From Aureispira anguillae (lineage in GTDB: Bacteria > Bacteroidota > Bacteroidia > Chitinophagales > Saprospiraceae), in the NCBI RefSeq assembly GCF_026000115.1, contig NZ_AP026867.1:2387501-2451500 (forward strand): a DNA stretch of 64,000 nucleotides, written 5' to 3'. This document shows, piece by piece, positions 32,575 through 61,018 of this stretch; position 1 is the first letter of the stretch, and each line of letters begins with the position of its first letter. The position numbers and the translations under genes were made by a program. The notes beneath the pieces were generated by a model, which was not told where the DNA came from, ran no database searches, and saw only the letters and a list, made by a program, of their open reading frames with translations.

Positions 32575-33543
32575 TTATCCATCAATATTTCGAATGGCAA
32601 TTATCTGAGCAGCAACACTTACTGCAATTTCAGCAGGAGTTTTACATTTTATTGGCAAACCAATTGGTGTATGCACCCGATCAAAATCCTCCTTTGTAAT
32701 TCCTTTGTCTAACAAGGTTGCTCTAATTCTGTCTACTTTTACTTGGCTAGCCATCATACCAATATAACAAGCAGGTTTATGAATTAGTTGACTTAAAATC
32801 AACGTATCCAATGCACTAGAAAAACTCATAATTATAATATAATCATATTGTGTGCTTGGTACAAAAGTAGCTATTTTTTTATAGCTAGTGATGATTTTTT
32901 TCGAAATAAATTGGTCATATTTCCCTGTGGGCAAAGCAGCTCGATTATCAATCAAAACAATTTTAAAATCCAACAGAAATAGCTGTTGGCACAAAGCCAA
33001 GCCGACATGACCTGCTCCAACCAAATAAACCGTTTCTTGAAAGCCAACAATATATTGATAGTGCCAAGTATCCTCTGTTTTAAGTTGATAATCAAACCTA
33101 GGTACATCAATGGGCACTTGTTCTAGGTGGATGGTATTTTCGGCTCTCAAAACTAAGTAATAAGAAGCTTCTTTTTGGCAGGCAATTATTATGTTTTGAA
33201 CTAAGTTTAGATGGCGTTGATTTAGAAAAAAAATCAAAATTGTCTGCTCCCCAGAGCAAGACAATCCTGACCATTTACTTTTATCCGATGGGTTGTGAAT
33301 CAACCGCTTTCTTAAGCATTCTTTTTGCCCTTTTACCAAAAGCTTTTTGCAAGCTTCTACCTGTTGATATTCCATCACACCACCACCAATAGTTCCATGC
33401 ATGGTAGCATCGCTTGCCACTGCCATTTGATGCCCCTGACGCCCTGGACTGCTGCCAATACTCTCAGGCACCCACATTAGCGCAACGCCTTGTTCTTCCT
33501 TTAGTTTTTGCGCTACATATAACCACAATTTTTGTTCTTCCAT
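32575..33543 (-). CDS. XdhC-family molybdenum hydroxylase maturation factor
   Basis: 322 residues. N-terminal XdhC/CoxI domain: 'VALMWVPESIGSSPGRQGHQMAVASDATMHGTIGGGVMEYQ' has the 'T..GSsPr..G..M.v..dg...GtiGGG..E' pattern. The C-terminal Rossmann domain is 'VYLVGAGHVGLALCQQL' followed by 'VLIDNRAALPTG'. Family members bind molybdenum cofactor and insert the sulfurated form into xanthine dehydrogenase and related enzymes. The gene lies between moaA (9 bp) and the DUF6986/HpcH-like gene (12 bp) in one operon. The hydroxylase subunits themselves are not in the window. Confidence 0.9.
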   Translation of the reverse strand: MEEQKLWLYVAQKLKEEQGVALMWVPESIGSSPGRQGHQMAVASDATMHGTIGGGVMEYQQVEACKKLLVKGQKECLRKRLIHNPSDKSKWSGLSCSGEQTILIFFLNQRHLNLVQNIIIACQKEASYYLVLRAENTIHLEQVPIDVPRFDYQLKTEDTWHYQYIVGFQETVYLVGAGHVGLALCQQLFLLDFKIVLIDNRAALPTGKYDQFISKKIITSYKKIATFVPSTQYDYIIIMSFSSALDTLILSQLIHKPACYIGMMASQVKVDRIRATLLDKGITKEDFDRVHTPIGLPIKCKTPAEIAVSVAAQIIAIRNIDG

Positions 33544-44220: not shown

Positions 44221-45060
44221 ATGAATTTTAAATTTATTACCATCCTAAATTTTCTTTTCCTCTTTGGAGGTGTCCTACAAGCGCAGGACAACCTAGAATC
44301 TCTTTTAGGCATGGTTGAGACAGGCAAGACTTACGCTTTATACAAAGCAAAGCCTAGTGACAAAAAAGTAATCAAGGAAAAACAAACGCATTACCTCAAA
44401 TTGGTTCCTCCAAAGTATAAGACAATCTTCGACACCATCGAACTTGCCCCTGCTTTAAATGGAAATTTGGATACCAGCAACTACTTTATCCAAACAGAAG
44501 TTTTGGTGCTAAAAGAACCTGGCGCAGAATGGAAAACGGCACGAGTTTCTCCTCTCTGTAGAGAAAACGATGGCGTTCCTCATTTGGCACTTTGTCTCAT
44601 CAAAACCATTCCCGATTATCAAATTATTCACCGCAAATTTTTTCCATTCAAAAATATTTTTGACGTCAGCACTACGGATTATATTATTCCTGCCGAAACA
44701 GTTGTTGTTGAACGAAAAGTTCTTGTTCAACAAGCAGGCATTTACTATGTCACTGCTGAGCAAAAAAACAACATTGGACCAGAGGAAAAATTAGTAACAA
44801 TTCCTGCTGGAAAATGGAAATACTGGGAAGAAATCACTTGCCCCTATGGAGAATTTAACGATCCTTCTATTACGGACATTCAAGAAGCACTAAAGAAGCA
44901 ACAATACGAGGTTAGAGTTACTGGTAAATTTGATGAGCAAACTAAGCGATTCTTAATGCTATTCCAACAAGATAATATGCTGGAAGAAGGAGGAATTACT
45001 CCCGAAACATTACAACGTCTAGGCGTTAAAAGAGAAAAATTAATTACGATTGAATTTTAA
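44221..45060 (+). CDS. Secreted protein with a C-terminal peptidoglycan-binding-like domain
   Basis: 279 residues from ATG 44221; the TTG at 44197 is less likely because the signal peptide MNFKFITILNFLFLFGGVLQAQ begins at 44221. Residues about 25-200 are beta-rich and unrecognised ('SLLGMVETGKTYALYKAKPSDKKVIKEKQTHYLKLVPPKYK', ending 'VTIPAGKWKYWEEITCP'). Residues about 215-275 ('PSITDIQEALKKQQYEVRVTGKFDEQTKRFLMLFQQDNML...GITPETLQRLGV') match the PG_binding_1 helical fold. It is periplasmic or surface-exposed and probably docks to the cell wall. A hairpin terminator follows. Confidence 0.8.
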   Translation: MNFKFITILNFLFLFGGVLQAQDNLESLLGMVETGKTYALYKAKPSDKKVIKEKQTHYLKLVPPKYKTIFDTIELAPALNGNLDTSNYFIQTEVLVLKEPGAEWKTARVSPLCRENDGVPHLALCLIKTIPDYQIIHRKFFPFKNIFDVSTTDYIIPAETVVVERKVLVQQAGIYYVTAEQKNNIGPEEKLVTIPAGKWKYWEEITCPYGEFNDPSITDIQEALKKQQYEVRVTGKFDEQTKRFLMLFQQDNMLEEGGITPETLQRLGVKREKLITIEF

Positions 45061-49239: not shown

Positions 49240-52200
49240 TTAAGTCCAAATTTCGGTTTTGTAACGTCCATTCCTTTTCATATTTTCCAACCAAGTTGTT
49301 GCCTCATTGTCTGAGTTATTTTGATTATAAATCTGTTCAAAAGCCAATTCAACTCCTTTCGCCATTCCTGCTGCATCTCCACAGATATAGACAATGGCAT
49401 CTCGCTCTAAACAGTCCCAAATTAGATCCTGTTGCATTAATAGCTGATCTTGAACATAAACTTTATGCTGAGGCTTCTCTCTTGAAAATGCTGTATACAG
49501 CTCCAATACGCCCTTTTCTACCGCCGATTCTAGTTCCTCCCTATAGAGAAAATCTTGCGTGGAGGCTCTACAGCCAAAAAACAACAAAGCATTGCCTAAT
49601 TCTTGCCCTTCTTTTTGCCTCCATAACCGCTCTTGAATAAAACCTCTAAAAGGAGCAATTCCCGTCCCCGCTCCAATCATAATGATGGGTCTTTCGTTTT
49701 TTTGTGGCAAGGTAAAATCTAGATTTGGTCGCCGAACAGCAACTAAAATTTTTTGTCCATGCTTTGCCCTTCCCAAATAATTAGAACAAATTCCCTGATA
49801 ATTGCCCTCGTCCAACACTCCAACCGTTAAACTACAAGTATTACCTTCTACCAATGGAGAAGAAGCAATGGAATAATAACGAGCTTGTAAATGGGGCAAC
49901 TGCTCCAAAAACAACTCAAAGGAAAGTTCGCAAGCCTCAAATTCTTCTAGTAAACTTAGTAAAGAGCGCTTTTTGGCAACAATTTCGGCATTAAAATTTT
50001 GCTCGTATAACTGCAATCTCATTTTTTCTGGTGGGCAACTTGTCCAGTTTATCAACAACTTAAGTTGTCTCCTAGTTGCTAGCGACTGCAACTCCACAAA
50101 ATGGCGCAACAAATCGTAGAGTAAAATAGGTTGCTGTAGTGGCAAATTTCCACTTTTATCATTGCTATCTATTTCATAACAATTTGTAGCCGATAGTTTA
50201 AATCGATGGCATACCCGTTCGATAAGTTTCGGGTTATTCTGAGGCTGTACCAACAAATAATCGCCAATTTGGTAATTGCTTCCTTTTGGCAAAGCTATTT
50301 GAATCTGCTTGGTAGAACGTTGGGACCTTTCAGTATTTTGTAATTCTTTATTTTGGACAATTGTTCCCCAATCAAACCCCTTAGGTACAAAATTAGGGCA
50401 TTGATAAACTGCATTTTTTTCTACTTTTTTAAGCTTTAAAACTGTTTTTTCTACAGCGGTCTCTTTTGCAGTAATTTTTAATTGTTTTCGTAAATTTGCC
50501 CAATAATTAGCGTACCATTTTTCAAAATCTGCATCAAAATCTACACTAGCATCTGCTGCCCCTTTTGCACAAAAAGCAACTGCGCCTAATTCAGACAAGC
50601 GTTTATCAAGCCAGTTTGGAAAAGCCTGATAACTCTTCCATTGAGAATTTCCACAGCCAAAAACAGCATATTTTAATCCCGAAAGATTATGCGTTGCACT
50701 CTTCAACCAATCCGCAAACTGTCGAGCATTGTCAGGAGGCGTTCCATTATAAGTAGAGCAAATAATTTGCACCAAGCCTGTTTGTGGCAATCGCTCTTTG
50801 TAGGCATCTAAAGTTGCTATAGTTGTTTTAAAACCATGTCGTTTGCCGTCTTTGGCCAATTGATGCGCCAACTCTTCAGAATTTCCCATATTTGACCCGT
50901 ATAAGATCAGTAAAGGAGTTTTATGTTGCTGTTCTTCATTGGCTACTTCCGTTACTTTATTTGCTGCTTCATTGGCTATAAAACGATAACGGTCTGCCTT
51001 GGTTCTTGGTTCTAAACGAACCTTTAAATCCAAGGGGCGCAACGTCACCGTTTCGTTAAATCCAAAGGTATAATTAGGGTCTAAATGCAATTTGTAACGT
51101 TGTAATATCATGGCAAGGGCAAGCGTTGCCTCCGTCAAGGCAAATTGACTCCCAATACAGGCTCGCTTTCCATTGCCAAATGCTTTAAAGGCATCTTTGT
51201 CTCGTTTAGCTACCTTTTCTGGCAAAAAGTGGTTGGGGTCAAATGTTTCTGGATCATCGCCCCAAATTGCTTTATCTCGATGCAAATGATACGGCCAAAC
51301 GGCAATAGAAGTTTCCTTGGGCACTTTATAGGCTCCATTTTTTAGAGTAGTATCTTGAGTTGGGGCAAGGGTCATAACAGGAACAGGAGGGTAAAGTCGT
51401 AGGGTTTCGAAGAGTACCTGACGAATCACCTTCATTTTTGCCAATTCCCTATGCGTAATTTCTTGTTCCAAATCATCCCCTAGCACTCCATCAATTTCCC
51501 GATACACCTTATCTAGCCATTCCTTATGGGTCAATAGATTGTAAAAAGCAAAAGAAAGCAAGCCACTGGTCGTTTCGTGTCCTGCAATCATAAATGTCAA
51601 AATCTGATAGCGCATATTTTCGTCGCTCAATTGCGTTCCTGTTTCCTTGTCGTATGCATTCATCATCAAACTCAAAAAATCAAACTTATTGGCATAAGCT
51701 TCGGGATTTTGTTTGCGTTTGGCAATGATTTCATCAATCAAATTATTAATGTAAGTAAGATGCTTTTTAAAGGCTTTGTTCCGCTTAAACCTAAATGGCA
51801 TCAAAAAAGGAATGGTTCGAGCTCGTCGCACTGCTTCGTCTAAAGCAAACAACATAGCAGGAATAAAATCGTGCTCTTTTTCAGATTTAAAGCTATCAAA
51901 GTTATAATCAAAACCACAGACACCTATTGTATCAAACGTATAACGAGTCATGTCGTCTGATAAGTTGAAATATTTTGTTGGGGGAATTTTCTCCCATTTT
52001 TCTAACAAACGATCTACAATTTTCTTCATAACGGGCACATAACCTCGCATGGAACGCTGAGAAAAACCTGGCATTAAAATATTGTGTGCCTTCTTCCAAT
52101 TTGGCTCATGAGACCAAGCTGTAAATAAACCATCTCCTGCTATTACCCGCAAATGTTGAGTTGGCACATTGATGTGTTTTGGAAAGCGCTCTTCGTCGGA

Positions 52201-52561: not shown

Positions 52562-53599
52562 TTAAAACTCAAATTGCACCTTATATAAATTCGGCATGTC
52601 TTCCAAAAAAGATGGTTTTTCCGTAAATTTATTGTGATAGACGGTCAATTCTTGAAGGTTAGATAATTTATGGATGGACTCTGGGAGTTTGGTGAGTGCG
52701 GACTTTACAATGGTTAATTTTTCTAAGGATTTTAATTCCCCTATTTCACTTGGTAATTCCTTAATTTGGCTGGTATAGATTTGTAAGTGTTTGAGTTTTT
52801 TCATGCCCAAAATCACTTCTGGAAATACCTTAAGTTCCTTTCCTCCTAATACTAATTCTTCTAACTTTTTTAGTTTTAATAGTTCTAATGGCAAGTCTTC
52901 TATAGGGTTTCCAAATAGTCTAAGTGCTTGTAAATTTTTGAGATTACCGATAGAAGCATCAATTGTTTTTATTTTGTTTTGGGCTAAATTCAATTCCTTA
53001 AGTTTGGGGAGAGTACAAACTTGACTCGGAAACGTCCTAAATCGATTTCCATACAAAACAATTTCTTTTAAGCCAACCATTTTTTCTATAGAATCGGGCA
53101 ATGCCTTGAGGTGATTATCTGATGCATCTAGTGTTTTTAGCCCCACCAAATTTCCAATGGACACTGGTAATGCTTTTAATTTATTCTGGTCAATTTTTAG
53201 CTCTTTTAACCCAACTAGGTTTCCAATAGACTCTGGCAAAGTCTCCAACTCGTTATAACGCAAATTTAACTTCTGTAAGTTTTTTAGTTCTCCCAATGAC
53301 GCTGGCAATTCAGTTAGGCGATTGTAATCCAATCTCAATCTATTGTTATGCTCTAATAAATGCATAAAATCAGGCAAAAAGGTTAGCTTTTTGGATCGTA
53401 TTAAACCTGTCTTAAAACTAGCGATGCCTTTTGCTAAAGTAGCAATCGTTTTTATATCAAAAGCTTTTATTATTGGCTGATAATGCTTCCATACTGCTTC
53501 TTTTAAAGCAGCATTTCCTTTTAGTATTTCTAAGGCAACTTTTGCGCTTTGGGCATCTGCTTCTAATAAAACACAAACATTTTTTAATTGATCCGTCAT
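52562..53599 (-). CDS. Leucine-rich-repeat protein
   Basis: 345 residues from ATG 53599; a TTG start would add 8. Residues about 75-345 form about 11 tandem LRRs of 23 residues with the consensus 'LPxSIGNLxxLKxLxLxxNxL' ('ALPVSIGNLVGLKTLDASDNHLKALPDSI'), of the type seen in bacterial and plant intracellular Ras-group LRRs. The first about 70 residues are helical. There is no signal peptide or effector domain, so it is probably a protein-binding scaffold. Its start lies next to repeat sequences (53622-53650, 53761-53810) that look like arms of the cassette repeats downstream. Confidence 0.88.
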   Translation of the reverse strand: MTDQLKNVCVLLEADAQSAKVALEILKGNAALKEAVWKHYQPIIKAFDIKTIATLAKGIASFKTGLIRSKKLTFLPDFMHLLEHNNRLRLDYNRLTELPASLGELKNLQKLNLRYNELETLPESIGNLVGLKELKIDQNKLKALPVSIGNLVGLKTLDASDNHLKALPDSIEKMVGLKEIVLYGNRFRTFPSQVCTLPKLKELNLAQNKIKTIDASIGNLKNLQALRLFGNPIEDLPLELLKLKKLEELVLGGKELKVFPEVILGMKKLKHLQIYTSQIKELPSEIGELKSLEKLTIVKSALTKLPESIHKLSNLQELTVYHNKFTEKPSFLEDMPNLYKVQFEF

Positions 53600-53843
53600 T
53601 TTAAACAATTTGGCGTCATACAATATATACGATGGCGTTCCTAACGAGCGTCAACACTAAGATAAAGTAAAAATGATTATATTAACAAAAAAGTTTATCC
53701 TTGTCCTAATTGGTGGAAGTACACATCATTTTATCCTGTTGTTGTCTGAACACCTTAAAATTATCAAGGGAATAAAATATATATACGCCATTGTGTATAT
53801 TGGTTTGTTAGCTTCCATATAAATCCCTAAAATACTAAATTAA
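53600..53843. other. Left boundary of the cassette-like array
   Basis: Contains 'caatatatacgatggcgttcctaacg' near 53619-53645, which resembles the reverse complement of the repeat arm in 53781-53810. The 50-bp repeat copy 53761-53810 and the first cassette start GTTAGCTTCC (53808-53817) follow. Confidence 0.45.
53761..53810 (+). repeat. Short attC-like repeat, copy 1
   Basis: 50 bp starting attatcaagggaataa and ending gtgtatattggtttgtt. The same sequence with a 4-base gap recurs at 60313-60358. It contains a self-pairing core (aatata...tatatt) and abuts GTTAGCTTCC, the start of cassette A. Confidence 0.7.
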
Positions 53844-54518
53844 ATGATTCAAAAAATAAATGAGGCTTTTATAAAATTAGGCTTCTACCCTTCTCGAAAT
53901 TTCAATCCAGATTATGAATATCACCTTGTACGAAATATTGAAAAAGGAAAACAAGTTATTACTCTCTCTGTAGATGATAATTATCCAAACGACAAATATG
54001 TCTTTGATGTTTCTCTAAGTATTTACTTTGATGAAATCGACGAAATAACACAATTCGGAAATCTAAAATATATTCGTTTTTCTAAAATAGAATCTAATTT
54101 TGAATTAGACTTCCTAAATATACCTGTAGTTGATTTTGATTTTGACTTTATTACCAATACTTACACAAACCAACCACTATCAAATAAATTAAAAATAGAT
54201 GATGAAGACTCATTAAATTGGTTAATCCAACTCTATGATTATGATTTAAAAGATTTTTTCAAAAAATATTCAAATATTGAAGAAGCTAAATTAAGTTTAA
54301 ATCATCCTTATTCATTCTATAAAAAAAATGAACCTCATTGGAATGGCTGTATTCTAAAACTCCTTTTTACCGCTCAAAATTCTAAATCAGATTTCGAAAA
54401 TCAAATCCTAGAAGTATTTAAAATATATGAGAAAGCTCATGATGGTTTTAAATTAAACCTACCTAAAAGTCTTTTAGAAGCATATATTATAAAACTAAAA
54501 TCAAATTTTGGTTATTAA
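53844..54518 (+). CDS. Cassette A gene: hypothetical protein, 224 aa
   Basis: Not recognised. Acidic, soluble, rich in Asp, Asn, Phe and Tyr. 'MIQKINEAFIKLGFYPSRNFNPDYEYHLVRNIEKGKQVITLSVDD' and 'YVFDVSLSIYFDEIDEI' suggest alternating strands and helices, as in small immunity-like or defence-accessory proteins. Very AT-rich compared with the core genes. It is the only gene between cassette start 53808 and attC-like repeat 54531. Confidence 0.7.
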   Translation: MIQKINEAFIKLGFYPSRNFNPDYEYHLVRNIEKGKQVITLSVDDNYPNDKYVFDVSLSIYFDEIDEITQFGNLKYIRFSKIESNFELDFLNIPVVDFDFDFITNTYTNQPLSNKLKIDDEDSLNWLIQLYDYDLKDFFKKYSNIEEAKLSLNHPYSFYKKNEPHWNGCILKLLFTAQNSKSDFENQILEVFKIYEKAHDGFKLNLPKSLLEAYIIKLKSNFGY

Positions 54519-54530
54519 AATAAGAATAAC

Positions 54531-54732
54531 GGAAGCTAACAATATGTACAGAGCCATGCTAGAAAAAAAGTACAATTTATACGGTTAACGCATGAACTAC
54601 ACCGCAAAATCTGTGATTTTGCCACTAGACGAAAATAAATTTACTGCCAAAATCACAGATTTTGCTCAGGGAACACCTATATTTATTCTCCGCATGGCTT
54701 TCGCACGGTCTATACATGGGCCGTTAGTGGTA
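54531..54732 (+). repeat. attC-like palindromic repeat A
   Basis: Starts ggaagctaac (54531-54540), the exact reverse complement of the cassette A start (53808-53817), and ends at ccGTTAGTGGTA (54723-54732), the start of cassette B. In between are an 18-bp perfect hairpin (54604-54621 with 54648-54665) and outer pairs such as gagccatgc/gcatggctttc. This is the layout of an integron attC site: R'' at the left, R' (GTTRRRY) at the right, imperfect palindrome between. Confidence 0.7.
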
Positions 54733-54733
54733 A

Positions 54734-54883
54734 TTGTCCTTTGCTCAAAAATCCTTCGTCCAAAAGCTAGAAAAAGAGATTAATCTCAACATCTATCAAA
54801 ACATCACAAAATTAATTTCTCCAGATACTTTATTCCTTTTTTTAGTACTAAAAGAATTTAAACCTTGGCTTAAACCAAAATAA
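54734..54883 (+). pseudogene. Possible 3' remnant of a gene, or a TTG-start small ORF
   Basis: 49 open codons directly after the cassette boundary, reading 'SFVQKLEKEINLNIYQN...SPDTLFLFLVLKEFKPWLKPK'. The composition looks like a real protein C-terminus, but there is no ATG. It may be the tail of a gene cut by a cassette exchange. Confidence 0.3.
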
Positions 54884-54926
54884 TTACTAATTTTCATTTA
54901 TCGAAAAACGTATTATAAGATATTAG

Positions 54927-56888
54927 ATGATTACATTATCAAAGAAATTAAAGCTAGAATTATTTAATGTAATTTTGAACGAAAAATCTCCATTTGGCTT
55001 TATCTCAGATGAAGATGGTCTTATCCCTTTTTTAAATAAAATCTGGGATTTAAAAAATATGCCTTCAACTGACCCTCGTTTTTCAACAGCTGAACAAGAT
55101 ATTGCCCAACATACGATAAGAAATGATGATTGGGAGTTAGAGTTTCTCTTTGATGAAATATTAAACCTTTTTGAGGATGATTCTAAATATCGTCTTTTTA
55201 TCGAGACTATACTTAGTCCAGAATTTAGAGAAACCGAGGATGGAATTACTAAATACTTCTATTTAATAAATCCTTATTTAGAGAAAGAAAGCTATGCCTT
55301 AATTATAAATGAATACAATAATGAGGATTTACCTATATACAAAGTTGGGCTAAAAGCAGAAGCAGAAGAACTTCTCATCGAATTAAAGGAAAACACTATT
55401 CCCTTCATAGTAGAGACTCAACTAACTGGAAAATCTTCATTAGCTAGATCTCATAAAACACCAAAAACAACTCCATCTTTTGTTTTAGCATTTAATAGTG
55501 GCTGGAATGATTATAGTGTTGTCTCTAGTTTTTCTCTATTCTATTATTCAGAAGGTATACAATATGTATATATTGGAGATGTTAAAATAATACACATTGA
55601 GACCTTAAATACCTCAAAAAAAATTCCTTTATCTTTCAATTCTTTACCTGATATTTTTTGCTCGTTAGGTCAAAATATTAGTTATTATAATAGGTTGAAA
55701 GAACATTTTGGAAAAGAATTTAAAAGTATATTATTTGCGTTAAGAGATGCTGCATTCTTTCCTGACATTCACGAAAAATATGAACAAAACTCGAATTTCA
55801 TTAATTCCCTAATTCGAACTAATACTGCCGAAAGATTACTCCGAGAAGCAAAATATCAAGTTTACAACTATGACTTATCGAATTTATACAGTTTTAAATA
55901 TACTTTCCAACCTAAATACTCAAAAGAATCTATTGAAGTAGATTTTAACTTTAATAACAATAAAAATTTACCCAATCGAATTTATGCAATTATTGGGAAA
56001 AATGGAATTGGAAAAACACAGTTAATCTCATCTCTTCCATTTGATATATACAAAAAGAAAGACGATGTTTTTATGCCCAAAACACCATTATTCAGTAAGG
56101 TAATAGCTGTGTCTTACAGCATTTTTGACTCATTTAAAGTCCCTCAGAAAACAGCATCTTTTAACTATTTATATTGTGGTCTAAAAGATGAGAATGGAGA
56201 AAACATTTCTGAAAAAGACTTAGTAAGACGCTTCCATAAATCCTCTCAAAAAATAAAAAATTTAAAACGAATTCAAGAGTGGAACCAAATCTTACTCAAT
56301 TTCATAGACAAACAGTTGCTAAGTCAATTTATTCGCTTAAAAAGAATAGACCAAAGAAGAGAATACGTCATAGACTTTGAGGGTTTTTCAAAAATTAAAA
56401 ACATCCTTAGTTCAGGGCAAAATATTATATTATATATTATCACAGAAATAGTGGCTAATATAAGATACGATTCTTTATTGTTGTATGACGAACCTGAAAC
56501 ACATTTACATCCCAATGCTATTTCACAATTAATAAATACCATCTATGAACTCGTAAATGAATTTGAGTCTTATTGCATTCTTGCTACACACTCTCCTCTT
56601 ATCATTAGGGAACTTCTCTCTCGAAATGTATATATCTTAGAACGGTTTGATGATACTCCAGCAATTCGTAAATTAAATATTGAAACTTTTGGAGAAAACC
56701 TTACAACTTTAACAGAAGAAGTTTTTGGGAATAGAGAAATTCCTAAACAATACAAAATTATTCTTGAGAATCTTGTCTATGAAGGTAAGAACTATGAACA
56801 AATTCTCTCGCTTCTTGAATCTGACAACATTCCCTTAAGTCTAAATGCAAAGATTTATATCAAAAGTTTACTAAATGAAAAATATTAG
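54927..56888 (+). CDS. PtuA-like ABC ATPase with an AbiJ-NTD3-like N-terminal domain (anti-phage candidate)
   Basis: 653 residues. The N-terminal about 150 residues ('DLKNMPSTDPRFSTAEQDIAQHTIRNDDWELEFLFDE', then 'YFYLINPYLEKESYALI...LPIYKV') fit the AbiJ-NTD3 pattern of abortive-infection proteins. The C-terminal ATPase (from about 340) has Walker A GKNGIGKT (357-364), ABC signature LSSGQ (494-498), Walker B LLLYDEPE (517-524) and switch His555 in ATHSP: an SMC/RecF-like AAA_21 of the PtuA/OLD group. It overlaps the HNH gene by 14 bp. With that nuclease it matches a Septu-type operon, in which ATP binding or loss restrains the nuclease. The pairing with an AbiJ-type domain is the unusual part. 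AT-rich, inside cassette B. Confidence 0.85.
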   Translation: MITLSKKLKLELFNVILNEKSPFGFISDEDGLIPFLNKIWDLKNMPSTDPRFSTAEQDIAQHTIRNDDWELEFLFDEILNLFEDDSKYRLFIETILSPEFRETEDGITKYFYLINPYLEKESYALIINEYNNEDLPIYKVGLKAEAEELLIELKENTIPFIVETQLTGKSSLARSHKTPKTTPSFVLAFNSGWNDYSVVSSFSLFYYSEGIQYVYIGDVKIIHIETLNTSKKIPLSFNSLPDIFCSLGQNISYYNRLKEHFGKEFKSILFALRDAAFFPDIHEKYEQNSNFINSLIRTNTAERLLREAKYQVYNYDLSNLYSFKYTFQPKYSKESIEVDFNFNNNKNLPNRIYAIIGKNGIGKTQLISSLPFDIYKKKDDVFMPKTPLFSKVIAVSYSIFDSFKVPQKTASFNYLYCGLKDENGENISEKDLVRRFHKSSQKIKNLKRIQEWNQILLNFIDKQLLSQFIRLKRIDQRREYVIDFEGFSKIKNILSSGQNIILYIITEIVANIRYDSLLLYDEPETHLHPNAISQLINTIYELVNEFESYCILATHSPLIIRELLSRNVYILERFDDTPAIRKLNIETFGENLTTLTEEVFGNREIPKQYKIILENLVYEGKNYEQILSLLESDNIPLSLNAKIYIKSLLNEKY

Positions 56889-57717
56889 TGCTTATAGTAA
56901 AAATTCTATGGATTTTTTTGATGAAGTCCTTAACTCCAAAAAAGATCCCATTTTGGTATCTAGAATTAATGTTTTATACCCAAACATTACTCATCTATTT
57001 CAAACTTATGATACACTCTTTAGCTCAAATTCATTGGTTAATGCTAACTCATTTGGTTATTCAGGACAGAATAAAAGTGATTTAGAAAAACTATATAATT
57101 ATAAAAGAAAAGCATTTAGAATATTAGAGCTAGAATTAACAACTAATAGTAAAAACCGCCGTAATAACACCTGCCAAAACTGCACACTTGAGTCAATTAA
57201 TTCATTTGACCATTTACTACCTCAAACAGAATTTATTGAATATGTAATTCATCCTAAAAATTTATTCCCTAGTTGTACTACTTGCAATAGTCATAAGAGT
57301 AAAATATGGAGGGATAATGGAAAAACTCTTTTCTTAAATCTATACTTAGATACACTTCCTCAAGTCCAATATCTATTTGTAGATATAAACATAACTAATG
57401 GTCTAGTTGAACCCACTTTTTATCTTGAAAATAGACATCATATTCACCCTGACTTATTTGAATTACTAGAAAACCATTATACTAAACTGCATCTTTTTAG
57501 AAGATTCAAAGAAAAAAGCGGAAATATCATTGAGGAATTAGAAAATTCTTTGAAGCCCTATAAAAACTCAGGAAACTTATCAAAAACAGATATTATTTCT
57601 ATTGTCGAAGATAAGATTGCTTTTGACAAAACTAGCTTTGGGATAAATTATTGGAAATCAATTTTAGAATATGAATTAATACACAGCAATTCTTTCATTG
57701 ACACCTTAATAAAATAA
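56875..57717 (+). CDS. HNH endonuclease, PtuB-like
   Basis: 280 residues. HNH core at residues 100-141: Cys100-x2-Cys103 (CQNC), Asp112-His113 (FDHLLPQ), Asn129 (HPKNLFPSC), Cys134-x2-Cys137-Asn138 (CTTCN) and His140-Lys141. Two zinc Cys pairs frame the betabetaalpha-metal nuclease site, and His113 is the general base. It overlaps the upstream ATPase gene by 14 bp, which implies coupled translation and a fixed ratio. In Septu, PtuA oligomers hold PtuB and release DNA cleavage on infection; the same is inferred here. The attC-like repeat B begins 4 bp after the stop codon. Confidence 0.9.
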   Translation: MKNISAYSKNSMDFFDEVLNSKKDPILVSRINVLYPNITHLFQTYDTLFSSNSLVNANSFGYSGQNKSDLEKLYNYKRKAFRILELELTTNSKNRRNNTCQNCTLESINSFDHLLPQTEFIEYVIHPKNLFPSCTTCNSHKSKIWRDNGKTLFLNLYLDTLPQVQYLFVDINITNGLVEPTFYLENRHHIHPDLFELLENHYTKLHLFRRFKEKSGNIIEELENSLKPYKNSGNLSKTDIISIVEDKIAFDKTSFGINYWKSILEYELIHSNSFIDTLIK

Positions 57718-57720
57718 AAC

Positions 57721-57923
57721 TACCACTAACAAAGTGCAAATACGGTCATGCTAAAGATTGGGCTAAAGAAAAAGATGGTGGGCTTTGCTTTACTTCCGCA
57801 AAATCACAGATTTTGCTAGTACTAGAAGATAAATTACTGCCAAAATCTGTGATTTTGCTTCGGGGAATGCTTATATTTCTGTTCGCATAACTTGTGGCAC
57901 GATATATAGCAAGACGTTACCAA
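57721..57923 (+). repeat. attC-like palindromic repeat B
   Basis: Starts taccactaac (57721-57730), the exact reverse complement of the cassette B start (54723-54732), and ends at cGTTACCAA (57916-57923), the start of cassette C. An 18-bp perfect hairpin (57798-57815 with 57841-57858) is inside. The same hairpin is present in repeat A with its two arms exchanged. Confidence 0.7.
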
Positions 57924-57946
57924 CAAGCTGAACAAAAAATCTGCTA

Positions 57947-58693
57947 ATGAATAAACTTTCGACAGAGAATCTTAATCTTCTACCAAACTCAAAGGAATTA
58001 AGAAGGATTTGTAAATCCATTTCTGCTATAGAGGCAATTATTTCTCCTGAATGGGAATACAGGTACTACTCTTATCAAAAGGATTGGAGTGAAACAGAAG
58101 AGTTTTGTGAAATGCGGAACGGGCAAGGAGACCAAATGTTGATTCTATTTAGCAATGATGGAATATGCATAAATGGATTCGCTAGCGAAAGTGAAATGAA
58201 TGGTTGGAAAAATGTTCACATAGAAGAGAAAAAGTCTTTTATAGACAAATTATCTGACTCAAAAAAAGAACCTACAACAGAATTGATTCAAGAGATACCA
58301 AGTGGGGTTGTCACAGAATTACCAAAAGCTTTTAACGAGTTCATATATGGAGAACCTGTAAAGAGCATTGGAACAACATTTTGCATTTGGAACACTGGAA
58401 CAGATACAGATTGGAAAATTGGAAAAATCAATCTTCCTAATGATGATTACAAAGATGGTTCTTCGGACTTACTTGAATTATTGGATGGGAAACCAACGAC
58501 TTACAAAAAATGGGCAGAGGAATACTATGAAGAAGAATTTGAGAATAGAGAACTTAAATTAGAAGTGGTAGAAAAGATTTATTCGGGAATTATTATATCA
58601 AAAGACTTAGTTCTTGACATCAATCCAGAATTTGAAGATTTTGAAAAACTGAAAAGTGATTTGAATGAAATTGGGTATGAAAATGAATTATAA
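57947..58693 (+). CDS. Cassette C gene: hypothetical protein, 248 aa
   Basis: Not recognised by name. Strongly acidic. 'CKSISAIEAIISPEWEYRYYSYQKDWSETEEFCEMRNGQGDQMLILFSNDGICINGF' resembles a group of uncharacterised proteins with conserved 'W..RYY.~...W' and 'rNG.GD......' segments that often sit in cassettes. 'FCIWNTGTDTDWKIG' follows in the middle. No catalytic residues can be named, and there is no signal peptide. It is the only gene in cassette C. Confidence 0.7.
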   Translation: MNKLSTENLNLLPNSKELRRICKSISAIEAIISPEWEYRYYSYQKDWSETEEFCEMRNGQGDQMLILFSNDGICINGFASESEMNGWKNVHIEEKKSFIDKLSDSKKEPTTELIQEIPSGVVTELPKAFNEFIYGEPVKSIGTTFCIWNTGTDTDWKIGKINLPNDDYKDGSSDLLELLDGKPTTYKKWAEEYYEEEFENRELKLEVVEKIYSGIIISKDLVLDINPEFEDFEKLKSDLNEIGYENEL

Positions 58694-58701
58694 AAAGCCA
58701 A

Positions 58702-58747
58702 TTGGTAAAAATGTGTAAAAACGCATTTTACACTAAACGTTATCTGC
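58702..58747 (+). repeat. Short attC-like repeat C
   Basis: Starts ttggtaa (58702-58708), complementary to the cassette C start GTTACCAA at 7 positions (the outermost base differs), contains the hairpin gtgtaaaa/ttttacac (58713-58720 with 58726-58733), and ends at GTTATCTGC (58739-58747), the start of cassette D. Confidence 0.65.
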
Positions 58748-58758
58748 AATCAACTAAA

Positions 58759-59487
58759 ATGAAAAAAGAGAATTTATCCGACATACAACTTCATTCAGCA
58801 GGAGCGACGGTTAGGCATAAGAGCCCTTTTGAGGATTTAGATTCTTATGTAAATGATGTTGAAATTTCTCAAGAATTTAGAGAGAAATGGGTTATCCCTT
58901 TTTACTTTGAATTAAACAATCAATCTGACGAATGGATTAATAGAATAATTGAATTAAAACCTAAAATAAATGAAGAGATAATTCTTCAGAATTTAGGTAA
59001 TTTTGATTGGAGAACAAGATCGACAGGAAGCTATTTTGCTGCAGTTAAAAAATCGACTCATCTCGAAGAGATCATTGGGACACATCTATTAAAAAGTGAA
59101 GTCTGTTATGCTGGCTCAGAATATGCACTAACATTGGCTTCATTTAATACTTCAAAATCGGTAGGTTATTTCGATAAATACCTTGAATTTTATTTAAAGC
59201 AACCCCAATTATATTTCGATCAAAGTTCAGTAATAACCGCCATGAAATATCTTGATGAAGTAAATAACACCAATAATACAGAAAAGCATTTGAAGAATTG
59301 GCGGGACTTTCTTTTATGGCGGGATAAAGCTCAATTAGAAAATCTCAAAAACCTAAAAAATATAGTGCCAGATAAGAGTGAGGAGATTGATAAACAAATT
59401 AAAGAATTGGAACCACAAAATTCTTCAATTGACACAGAATATTTTCACCAATCGATTGAATCAATTAATCGAATTAGTAATGGATAA
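58759..59487 (+). CDS. Cassette D gene: DUF6000-like protein
   Basis: 242 residues from ATG 58759; the longer TTG frame begins inside the repeat and is rejected. The pattern 'WVIPFYFELN', 'ILQNLGNFDWRTRSTGSYFAAVKKSTHLEEIIGTHLLKSEVCYAGSEYALTLASF' and 'YLKQPQLYFDQSSVITAMKYLD' fits the DUF6000 family: a helical protein with a conserved NWR/DWR motif, then 'G..Ll.s...~~G~~Y..aLa'. Such proteins have no known activity and are common in variable regions. The cassette-end sequence GCAGATAAC starts 5 bp after the stop. Confidence 0.7.
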   Translation: MKKENLSDIQLHSAGATVRHKSPFEDLDSYVNDVEISQEFREKWVIPFYFELNNQSDEWINRIIELKPKINEEIILQNLGNFDWRTRSTGSYFAAVKKSTHLEEIIGTHLLKSEVCYAGSEYALTLASFNTSKSVGYFDKYLEFYLKQPQLYFDQSSVITAMKYLDEVNNTNNTEKHLKNWRDFLLWRDKAQLENLKNLKNIVPDKSEEIDKQIKELEPQNSSIDTEYFHQSIESINRISNG

Positions 59488-59491
59488 AAAA

Positions 59492-59633
59492 GCAGATAAC
59501 GTTTTGATATATGCAGTACCACAAGTCCTGCGAACAGAAATATAGCTAATCACAAAGCAAAATCTATGATTTTGTGGTGTCTCACACGCAGATGGACTTT
59601 AGCTTTAGCCCTAAACGACTAAATTATTTAGTC
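59492..59633 (+). repeat. attC-like repeat D (right half unclear)
   Basis: Starts gcagataac (59492-59500), the exact reverse complement of GTTATCTGC at 58739-58747. Then 'gatatatgcagtaccacaag ... gcgaacagaaatata' matches the reverse complement of the right arm of repeat B, and one copy of the caaaatctatgattttg palindrome follows. A gactaaa-tta-tttagtc palindrome is at 59617-59633. No GTTRRRY end can be fixed, so the right side may be decayed. Confidence 0.5.
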
Positions 59634-59700
59634 AATCTTGTAAGTCACAAAAGATAAAAGTTCTACACAATCCATTAGTTTTATTACACTAAACAGCCCT

Positions 59701-60294
59701 ATGCATCAATATTCAAAAATTATTTGTGCCTTTTCTCTCTTAAGTTTTTTGGGAAATATGCCTTTGACAGAAGCTCAGAATCCGTTCAAGGTATTAGATA
59801 AAGCAGAAAAATTTTACAGAAATGGGCTTTTACAAAGAGCCTTAATCAAAATAAAAAAAGCAGAGAGTACTAAATATTGCTCTTGTGGAGATTGTCTTGA
59901 CCAAATCAACAAAAAAACACACTTGCTTCGGTTCAAAATATTTAACTCATTAAAGAAATATCAACTAGCAAGGAATTCTTTAGATGCTATCATGTCTTCT
60001 TCTTCTGAGTATGATTCTTTAAAAATACTAACTTATCAAGCTGAATTTGGCAAAAAATTCTTATCCCAAAACATTGATTCATTTGAAAAAATAAATATAT
60101 ACTGTGAGGAAGAAGCTTGTTTTTTAGAAATTCCATTCAAAGAAAAACGCCCTCCCATTCTATTAAAATTAGATCCTGGTGAGAGCATTGTTTATCTTTT
60201 GGGAAATGAAAAACAATCAAAAAAGATAAAAGAGTATTGGCTTGAAAAATTTAAAACTTCAAAAAACTATGAATTAATAAAACAAGAAAATTAA
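59701..60294 (+). CDS. Secreted small helical-repeat protein, unknown function
   Basis: 197 residues. Signal peptide (IICAFSLLSFLGNMPLTEAQ). The mature part begins 'NPFKVLDKAEKFYRNGLLQRALIKIKKAESTKYCSCGDCLDQI', a TPR-like helix pair with a C-x-C-x2-C cluster, then more helices ('KKYQLARNSLDAIMS'). The C-terminus 'RPPILLKLDPGESIVYLLGNEKQSKKIKEYW' is different and could be a small binding domain. It may be the gene of a fifth cassette ending at the 60313 repeat. Confidence 0.65.
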   Translation: MHQYSKIICAFSLLSFLGNMPLTEAQNPFKVLDKAEKFYRNGLLQRALIKIKKAESTKYCSCGDCLDQINKKTHLLRFKIFNSLKKYQLARNSLDAIMSSSSEYDSLKILTYQAEFGKKFLSQNIDSFEKINIYCEEEACFLEIPFKEKRPPILLKLDPGESIVYLLGNEKQSKKIKEYWLEKFKTSKNYELIKQEN

Positions 60295-60312
60295 TAACAA
60301 TTCATCCTCAAC

Positions 60313-60358
60313 ATTATCAAGGGAATAATATATGCGCCATTGTGTATATTGGTTTGTT
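60313..60358 (+). repeat. Short attC-like repeat, copy 2
   Basis: 46 bp matching 53761-53810 except for a 4-base gap and a few changes. The flanks ctcaaca (60308-60314, overlapping) and GTTGTTGAG (60356-60364) are partly inverted to each other, as at an attC junction. Confidence 0.65.
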
Positions 60359-60478
60359 GTTGAGCAAGGAAAACCGAGTGAACGCTATACTGCAAAAGCT
60401 TCTCTTATTTTGAAAATTAAAAGTTAAACTCTAAAAGAAATTTCATTTATTTTTTCCTTAAATTTTAAATCAGATTTT

Positions 60479-61018
60479 ATGCGTATAATTGATAGTACTC
60501 TTTTTTCTCCTTTTTATATTTTTATTAAAGCGTCTGATTTATCAGATTCAGAGGTGTTAAATTTATTAGGAATTAAAAAATTTGAATTACTAAATAAGTA
60601 TCAAAAACATCCTAAAAATTGGCAAAAAAAAAGAACTTTATTCATTACTGAATGTAAAAATTGGATTCATATAATGGACTTTATGGATTATAATTTATGG
60701 CATAATCCTCAACTACGCATAAACTTAGAGCTTATTTCGAAAAAGTATGATATTTTCTATTGTTCAACAGGAGATGACGATTATTCATATGATTTTACAT
60801 ACTTAAAAGAAGGCATTCTAAAACGCAAATTAATAGTTGAGTATCCTAATTATAAAGGACCTATTATTAAAGAAAATATTGGTAAAAGGCTTTTGGGCGA
60901 ATCAGAAAAAATTGTACTAAAAGATGAAAGAAAAGAAGTATTATCGATTGCAAAAGCAATTGGTATTAATTTAAATCATGAAGAAAGTAAAATTCGGCAG
61001 TATTTGTATGAGTTATAG
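60479..61018 (+). CDS. Hypothetical protein, 179 aa
   Basis: Not recognised. Soluble, no signal peptide. 'SPFYIFIKASDLSDSEVLNLLGIKKFELLNKYQKHPKNWQKKRTLFITECKNWIHIMDFMDYNLWHNP' followed by 'YDIFYCSTGDDDYSYDFTYLKEG' and 'KRLLGESE' resembles small SUKH-like or immunity proteins in its pattern of 'l.~~~~w.hI.D' and 'S..eda..~f~yf..G'. This could be an immunity protein whose toxin is lost. AT-rich, like the cassette genes upstream. Confidence 0.65.
   Translation: MRIIDSTLFSPFYIFIKASDLSDSEVLNLLGIKKFELLNKYQKHPKNWQKKRTLFITECKNWIHIMDFMDYNLWHNPQLRINLELISKKYDIFYCSTGDDDYSYDFTYLKEGILKRKLIVEYPNYKGPIIKENIGKRLLGESEKIVLKDERKEVLSIAKAIGINLNHEESKIRQYLYEL

Follow-up and report, generated by a model that had tools for sequence, protein, structure and literature searches.

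A stretch of 64,000 nucleotides of the Aureispira anguillae genome (C1:2387501-2451500; 7.79 Mb, three contigs), referred to here as the window, carries at positions 53807-59500 a small, partly decayed series of four cassette units. We conclude with good confidence, from sequence comparisons, that this is an integron-type cassette array, that the recombinase fitting its sites is a relative of the integron integrase IntI without the I2 insertion, and that the host genome keeps a C-terminal relic of the integrase gene with its attI, together with orphan arrays. This reading is carried by the pairing rule of the cassette ends, the AAC and GTT borders of the sites, their recurrence as a family, the order of integrase gene, attI and array in relatives, the lack of I2 in these integrases, and the relic in the host. 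It also seems reasonably likely that Saprospiraceae and related families have a second lineage of cassette-capturing integrons, in which natural I2-less relatives of IntI are the integrases, and that the arrays of the window are its orphaned cassettes.

The cassette array and its site family

The following features are placed in window coordinates.

53760..53809, plus strand: array start, an occupied copy of the repeated element GTGTATA-N7-GTT; 90% identity to 60313-60358 over 50 columns (87.7% over 57)
53807..53816, plus strand: cassette 1 start arm GTTAGCTTCC; complementary in 10 of 10 letters to 54531-54540, A/C at position 11
53844..54518, plus strand: cassette 1 gene, predicted open reading frame of 224 amino acids (aa)
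54538..54725, plus strand: attC-like site A1, AAC to GTT, 188 nt, by core profile
54927..56888, plus strand: cassette 2 gene a, AbiJ_NTD3 and AAA ATPase; PADLOC PDC-M01A (2.7e-163), also PtuA-like
56875..57717, plus strand: cassette 2 gene b, HNH-like; PADLOC PDC-M01B (2.6e-57)
57728..57918, plus strand: attC-like site A2, AAC to GTT, 191 nt, by core profile
57947..58693, plus strand: cassette 3 gene, predicted open reading frame of 248 aa
58702..58741, plus strand: short site A3; damaged end arm TTGGTAAA, small hairpin up to GTT
58759..59487, plus strand: cassette 4 gene, DUF6000 family (4e-39)
59492..59615, minus strand: site A4; end arm GCAGATAAC (9 of 9 with 58739-58747), then inverted, truncated core
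60313..60358, plus strand: second, cassette-free copy of the array-start element; no complementary end found

An earlier note on these letters had described four units that each open with a GTT-type word whose complement closes the unit. All of these words are present, one of them (GTTAGCTTCC) starting at 53807 and not at 53808, and the pairing lengths given for them stand: 10 of 10 letters for cassettes 1 and 2 (the A2 end arm, 57721-57730, pairs with 54723-54732, again with A/C at 11), 9 of 9 for cassette 4, and seven for cassette 3 (TTACCAA at 57917, TTGGTAA at 58702), whose damaged end border reads TTGGTAAA, so that the C of AAC is lost. The palindromic repeats were said to end at the next GTT, which holds for A1 and A2 and fails for A4, where no closing GTT was found and the core is matched by the profile on the minus strand (59615-59493, E 5.5e-16), opposite in orientation to A1 and A2; this inverted core is possibly a trace of other-strand recombination. 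Folding of A3 is not significant (z -1.3), and units 3 and 4 are degenerate. A1 is flanked by the cassette 1 end arm from 54531 and the cassette 2 start arm to 54732, lies ~3 kb from A2, and was matched at C1:2442030-2442233 by a model (R1) that had A1 itself in its training set. All genes of the array are co-oriented, as had been noted.

Between 53500 and 60600, six exact 10-mer pairs were counted (mean 1.2, maximum 5 in 100 shuffles), and two with AACAA at the end (mean 0.19, maximum 2 in 300 shuffles). Single arm pairs are not rare in AT-rich DNA, and the weight therefore rests on the site family instead. Chaining of generic GTT/AAC pairs without site evidence was tried and rejected, because arrays could not be separated from shuffled DNA.

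Hairpins related to the long one after cassette 1 lie at C1:2.596-2.641 Mb and at 4.12 Mb. A site profile was built from 13 sites and a sequence-only model from 10; with the latter, 54 matches at E <= 0.01 were obtained for the host genome (palindromes counted on both strands), and the site family of the window recurs in its host. At 1e-6, the same model matched 15 of 398 genomes of the family, including 7 of 9 Aureispira, and found no long-type sites in the Aureispira genomes G477 and G544.

The pairing rule was examined with 38 sites, bordered by the core profile, from the host genome, G377, G437 (Aureispira sp. CCB-QB1), G198 and G508; other loci given to the test, G284 among them, yielded no sites. 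A pair was scored when nine letters from GTT had a complement ending in AAC 150-5000 nt downstream. Such an end followed 20 of 35 usable starts (mean 1.8, maximum 6 in 300 permutations of arms among sites), and 17 of 32 ends had a complementary start upstream (mean 1.2, maximum 5); for the host genome alone, 6 of 14 starts and 5 of 14 ends were paired. None of the 38 sites pairs with itself over 9 nt. In 19 of the 20 matched pairs, the start has A and the end has C at position 11, i.e. a mismatch in the top strand and a G.T pair in the bottom strand. The signature of pairing over 12 letters except A/C at 11 occurs twice in stretch A (the window plus 20 kb), six times in stretch B and twice in stretch C, with 0-1 occurrences per shuffle in five shuffles of each stretch; one of the two matches in stretch C, without AACAA, is taken as chance. 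Two sites of stretch B (B34 and B40) have a 187-nt core that is identical exactly from AAC to GTT, and their arms differ. These arm relations and the identical core are expected of integron cassettes and not of terminators, and they agree with the relation proposed at first, in which arms pair between the ends of a cassette, not within a site, and sites run from AAC to GTT. Comparisons with the boxes of known attC sites and with Vibrio repeats draw on general background.

In the bottom strand of ten aligned long sites, 12 of 34 predicted pairs show two-sided changes, and folding z values of -4.5 and -3.2 were obtained for two sites of stretch B. A single extra base as the first indel past the outer stem is found on the left arm in 22 of the 38 Aureispira-type sites and on the right arm in 2; at integrase-linked loci, the counts among 20 sites are 11 and 2. 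It sits 5-12 nt into the stem, and the other sites show no indel, longer indels or no stem in the arm-to-arm alignments. Such single bases resemble the extra-helical bases of attC, which a passage of PMC4792948 ties to strand choice.

Integrases without I2 in related genomes

No integrase had been visible beside the array, and indeed there is no Phage_integrase match within the window. The whole-genome search for IntI, likewise proposed with the first description, found no canonical IntI over the cut-off in the host genome; none of the nine Aureispira genomes passes it, and in the order one of 298 genomes does (G017). In a sample of the phylum, 105 of 395 genomes have a canonical IntI over the cut-off, and G017 is the only one of its own class among the matches listed. 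This IntI (G017:C40; 415 aa, 421.9 bits), in a genome of the same family, has attC-like repeats beside it on the opposite strand.

The Aureispira genome G377 encodes an integrase of 283 aa to which the IntI model aligns in two separate parts (135 and 92 bits). With TIGR02249 (cut-off 265) it scores 223, versus 132 for XerD and 112 for XerC of the host; NCBIfam NF040815 (cut-off 220) does not discriminate, and passes both the G377 integrase (228) and the host XerD (223). Integrase gene, attI and array lie on one strand in G377, the stop codon ~50 nt before an attI-like site TTTAGCAAGTA|GTT whose GTT is the start of the first cassette. By arm signature, some with one further mismatch, the array comprises at least 16 cassettes, and the stretch may stop before its end. 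The same attI recurs in G377 at 5253.3 kb, after a short remnant of the integrase gene end and before a second array of five cassettes, and at 1549.1 kb, after an integrase fragment of 107 aa. In strain CCB-QB1, a decayed integrase C-terminus is followed by attI and then by a cassette with matching arms (arms judged by eye). The host itself reads, at C1:3665.7 kb, HVSKQNLKKVARPLVF-stop, i.e. the last ~16 integrase codons, then an attI-like site that shares 78% identity with the G377 one, and GTT; no cassette end complementary to this GTT was found there. An attI stands beside an integrase gene in G377, CCB-QB1 and G284, and in the host only beside the 16-codon relic, outside the window. Judged from these sequences, the host genome appears to have lost the integrase gene and kept orphan cassettes.

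For the linkage of integrases and cassettes, a GTT at most 500 nt after the integrase stop was required to open a chain of arm-paired, hairpin-bearing cassettes; loci outside the genus were chosen by the IntI model alone and not by their neighbourhood. Of the 25 loci in the first set, 19 extend for 1 kb or more past the integrase (40 shuffles each); in the second set this holds for 12 of 20 loci (100 shuffles each). Chains above all shuffles were found in five of the 19 (G377, second array; G284, also Aureispira; L133, L134 and L141) and in five of the 12 (L221, L224, L225, L229 and L230). The longest comprises four cassettes (L133), followed by three in L134, L224 and L229, two in G377 and G284, and one in L141, L221, L225 and L230. 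Upstream controls, run for the first set only, scored 2, 2, 6 and 6 in four loci and 0 elsewhere; the score of L141 is also 6. The two Xer genes of the host, with two windows each, gave no cassette chain above shuffles. L144 exceeded its 40 shuffles at a score of 3 with an upstream control of 6, L140 and L143 were each equalled by one of 40 shuffles, and L127 (score 2, equalled in 10 of 40) has by eye one attC-like hairpin after the integrase; none of these was counted. No chain was seen in L126, L128, L129, L131, L136, L139, L142, L145, G544 and G477 of the first set or in L212, L218, L219, L223, L226, L227 and L228 of the second. In eight of the 20 loci of the second set, the contig ends inside the integrase gene or at most 600 nt after it, which would be expected if there are repeats beyond the gene.

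In an alignment of the I2-less integrases with 14 IntI and seven Xer proteins, 33 columns have residues in 60% or more of the IntI rows and in no more than 20% of the I2-less rows. Trees were built with such columns left out, the first with 53 rows and the second with 54 rows including two archaeal XerA; L144 (a copy of L050) was omitted from both, and L137 (broken C-terminus) from the second. The I2-less integrases and IntI group against Xer with 100/100 support in the first tree and against Xer plus XerA with 100/99 in the second, IntI forms one clade (100/100), and a constraint uniting the I2-less set with XerA is rejected by the approximately unbiased (AU) test (p-AU 0.0055). Core identity is 34% between I2-less integrases and IntI, 27% between I2-less integrases and Xer, and 26% between IntI and Xer. 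The I2-less integrases form a grade in the first tree; in the second they are a clade with weak support (84/57), and I2 may have been either gained in IntI or lost in the I2-less group. The I2-less group is common in the order. Many of its members from other genera have long N-terminal extensions (frames of 519-665 aa in L126, L127, L131, L134, L139, L142 and L143, versus 283 aa in G377).

Cargo, array starts and island integrases

Cassette 2 holds a predicted two-gene anti-phage system, PDC-M01A/B, a Septu-like ATPase and an HNH-like protein in one cassette. The cassette 1 protein had no match in Pfam (0.05) or PADLOC (0.01), and that of cassette 3 none in Pfam or PADLOC. Ten further proteins, taken from stretch B and from scattered loci, were compared with PADLOC; five of them were matched at 1e-5, in part weakly. 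A neighbouring P450 gene has relatives in the genus only at 37-61%.

The likeness between the array start (53760-53809) and the cassette-free copy (60313-60358) stops at GTT, and folding of the latter, near 60300, is not significant (z 0.4). GTGTATA-N7-GTT occurs four times in nine loci scanned: at the starts of the window array and of the stretch B array, in the cassette-free copy, and in stretch C, where it has no exact partner. Arrays may have been seeded at secondary sites of this kind, as the shared element suggests.

A second repeat family was observed at 44622-44803, 51619-51800, 32662-32843 and 69099-69261 of stretch B (loci L033, C1:2610001-2630000, and L032); three sites in these two loci share identical cassette ends, ATGGCAGTGAAC.

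Orphan sites also lie near island-type tyrosine recombinases at C1:1.88, 1.95, 4.07 and 4.40 Mb. These recombinases were considered as the cognate enzyme and dropped after the gene lists of all four loci, and two loci in full, had been read; island integrases and truncated sites were seen. At C1:1.87-1.96 Mb (L094 and L095), the integrase ends of two islands, which share a near-identical integrase of 431 aa, have attC-like sites that are orphan or truncated, and one cargo gene there matches PDC-S73; an integrase fragment at C1:2.5918 Mb, near stretch B, resembles by eye the same island type.

Alternative readings and comparison with known systems

The array might be an ordinary cluster of attC sites lacking integron-integrases (CALIN), which a canonical I2-bearing IntI left behind or serves, the I2-less integrases standing beside arrays by chance or as passengers. 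Such an IntI with adjoining attC-like repeats does exist in the same family (G017, above), canonical IntI is present in over a hundred genomes of the phylum sample, and I2 is described as essential in a part of PMC7790495. We regard this origin as unlikely, given that no genome of the genus passes the IntI cut-off, that the same attI follows an I2-less gene or what remains of it at three places in G377, at one in CCB-QB1 and at one in the host, and that I2-less integrases of other genera open cassette chains above all shuffles whereas the two Xer genes do not. It is very improbable that the cassettes are moved by different recombinases of the host, either XerC/XerD or the island integrases near several orphan sites. 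Xer enzymes are able to act on folded phage DNA (CTXphi) and four island recombinases do neighbour orphan sites; however, the two island loci read have truncated sites at island ends, no cassette chain follows the host Xer genes, and the attI of the genus adjoins the I2-less gene. Terminators, repetitive extragenic palindromes (REP) or miniature inverted-repeat transposable elements (MITE), or transposon ends, paired by chance, are hardly credible: the cores are palindromic, insertion sequence (IS)-type transposase genes interrupt stretch B and single 10-nt pairs are not rare, but in a plain palindrome the outer arms of one site would be complementary to each other, which over 9 nt is the case in none of the 38 sites, while arms pair across cassettes (the earlier note had named terminators as one finding that would refute its reading), and there is no Rfam match in 53500-60600 at gathering scores.

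Several observations weigh against the reading as an array of an I2-less IntI relative. There is no intact I2-less integrase in the host, whose own matches never exceed Xer-like scores; sites A3 and A4 are damaged; 13 or 14 of the 19 loci (L144 being doubtful) and seven of the 12 have no chain above all shuffles; and G477 and G544 have I2-less integrase matches, yet neither long-type sites nor a cassette chain. In the part of PMC7790495 drawn on here, I2 is reported to be essential for IntI1 activity, its helix being described as needed for cassette capture, present in no other protein and without known intermediates.

The following course is proposed for arrays served by an I2-less integrase. 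The bottom strand of the attC of a circular cassette would fold via its R and L arms, and the asymmetric extra-helical base, perhaps with the G.T wobble at arm position 11, would mark the strand. The integrase would join the folded attC to attI, to another attC or to a secondary site GTGTATA-N7-G|TT, the presumed type of the window's array start, and replication would resolve the recombination junction. Loss of the integrase gene, except for the C-terminal relic with attI at C1:3665.7 kb, would then have left the host with orphan arrays. The observations that bear on the predicted bottom-strand recombination at G|TT are the consistent borders, the extra-helical base and the G.T pair at position 11. 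That an I2-less integrase catalysed these steps, chose the strand, inserted cassettes by this route and served those of the window is what we infer from the combined sequence comparisons.

If I2-less relatives do act beside attI/attC arrays, the origin of single-strand cassette recombination would become directly testable. Folded attC could be captured without need for I2, with another part of the enzyme recognising the strand by features of the site (extra-helical base, G.T wobble), and a state preceding I2 may be preserved. It could also help to explain why complete integrons of Bacteroidetes are, in the part of a large survey considered here, known only from Salinibacter ruber M1 (PMC9024848). 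Some cassettes carry predicted anti-phage genes. Among the titles and abstract beginnings listed by searches of open-licence literature, with subscription papers and preprints outside this scope, none describes cassette arrays with an I2-less integrase.

On sequence criteria the system is integron-like: a cassette array, attC hairpins, complementary R arms, AAC/GTT borders and an integrase that groups with IntI apart from Xer and XerA were all found. The accepted I2 criterion places it outside the IntI integrons, as its integrase lacks this insertion. By our own site profile, A1 and A2 make the window array a CALIN (at least two attC less than 4 kb apart, no IntI nearby), and we class the whole as an integron-like platform with an I2-less IntI relative, in the host reduced to orphan arrays. 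Shared with chromosomal integrons (IntI, TIGR02249) and CALINs are attI beside the integrase gene, co-oriented cassettes, AAC...GTT attC hairpins, a cassette start complementary to its end, the extra-helical base of the left arm, and orphan arrays. Unlike in IntI integrons, the integrase has no I2 and falls short of the IntI cut-off (in G377, 223 bits where 265 are required), and in Aureispira the arm pairing extends over 10 letters and is followed by a fixed A/C at 11, many sites measuring ~145-190 nt. XerC/XerD and archaeal XerA have the same fold, length and lack of I2 as the I2-less integrase, but fall outside its clade with IntI, and the two host Xer genes head no cassette chain. Also close is an integron-like subgroup of tyrosine recombinases in PMC8138268, in which the insertion is not fully conserved and is still called essential to integron function; the portion of that paper used here makes no mention of cassette arrays of I2-less members, which are the arrangement described above for Aureispira and other genera.

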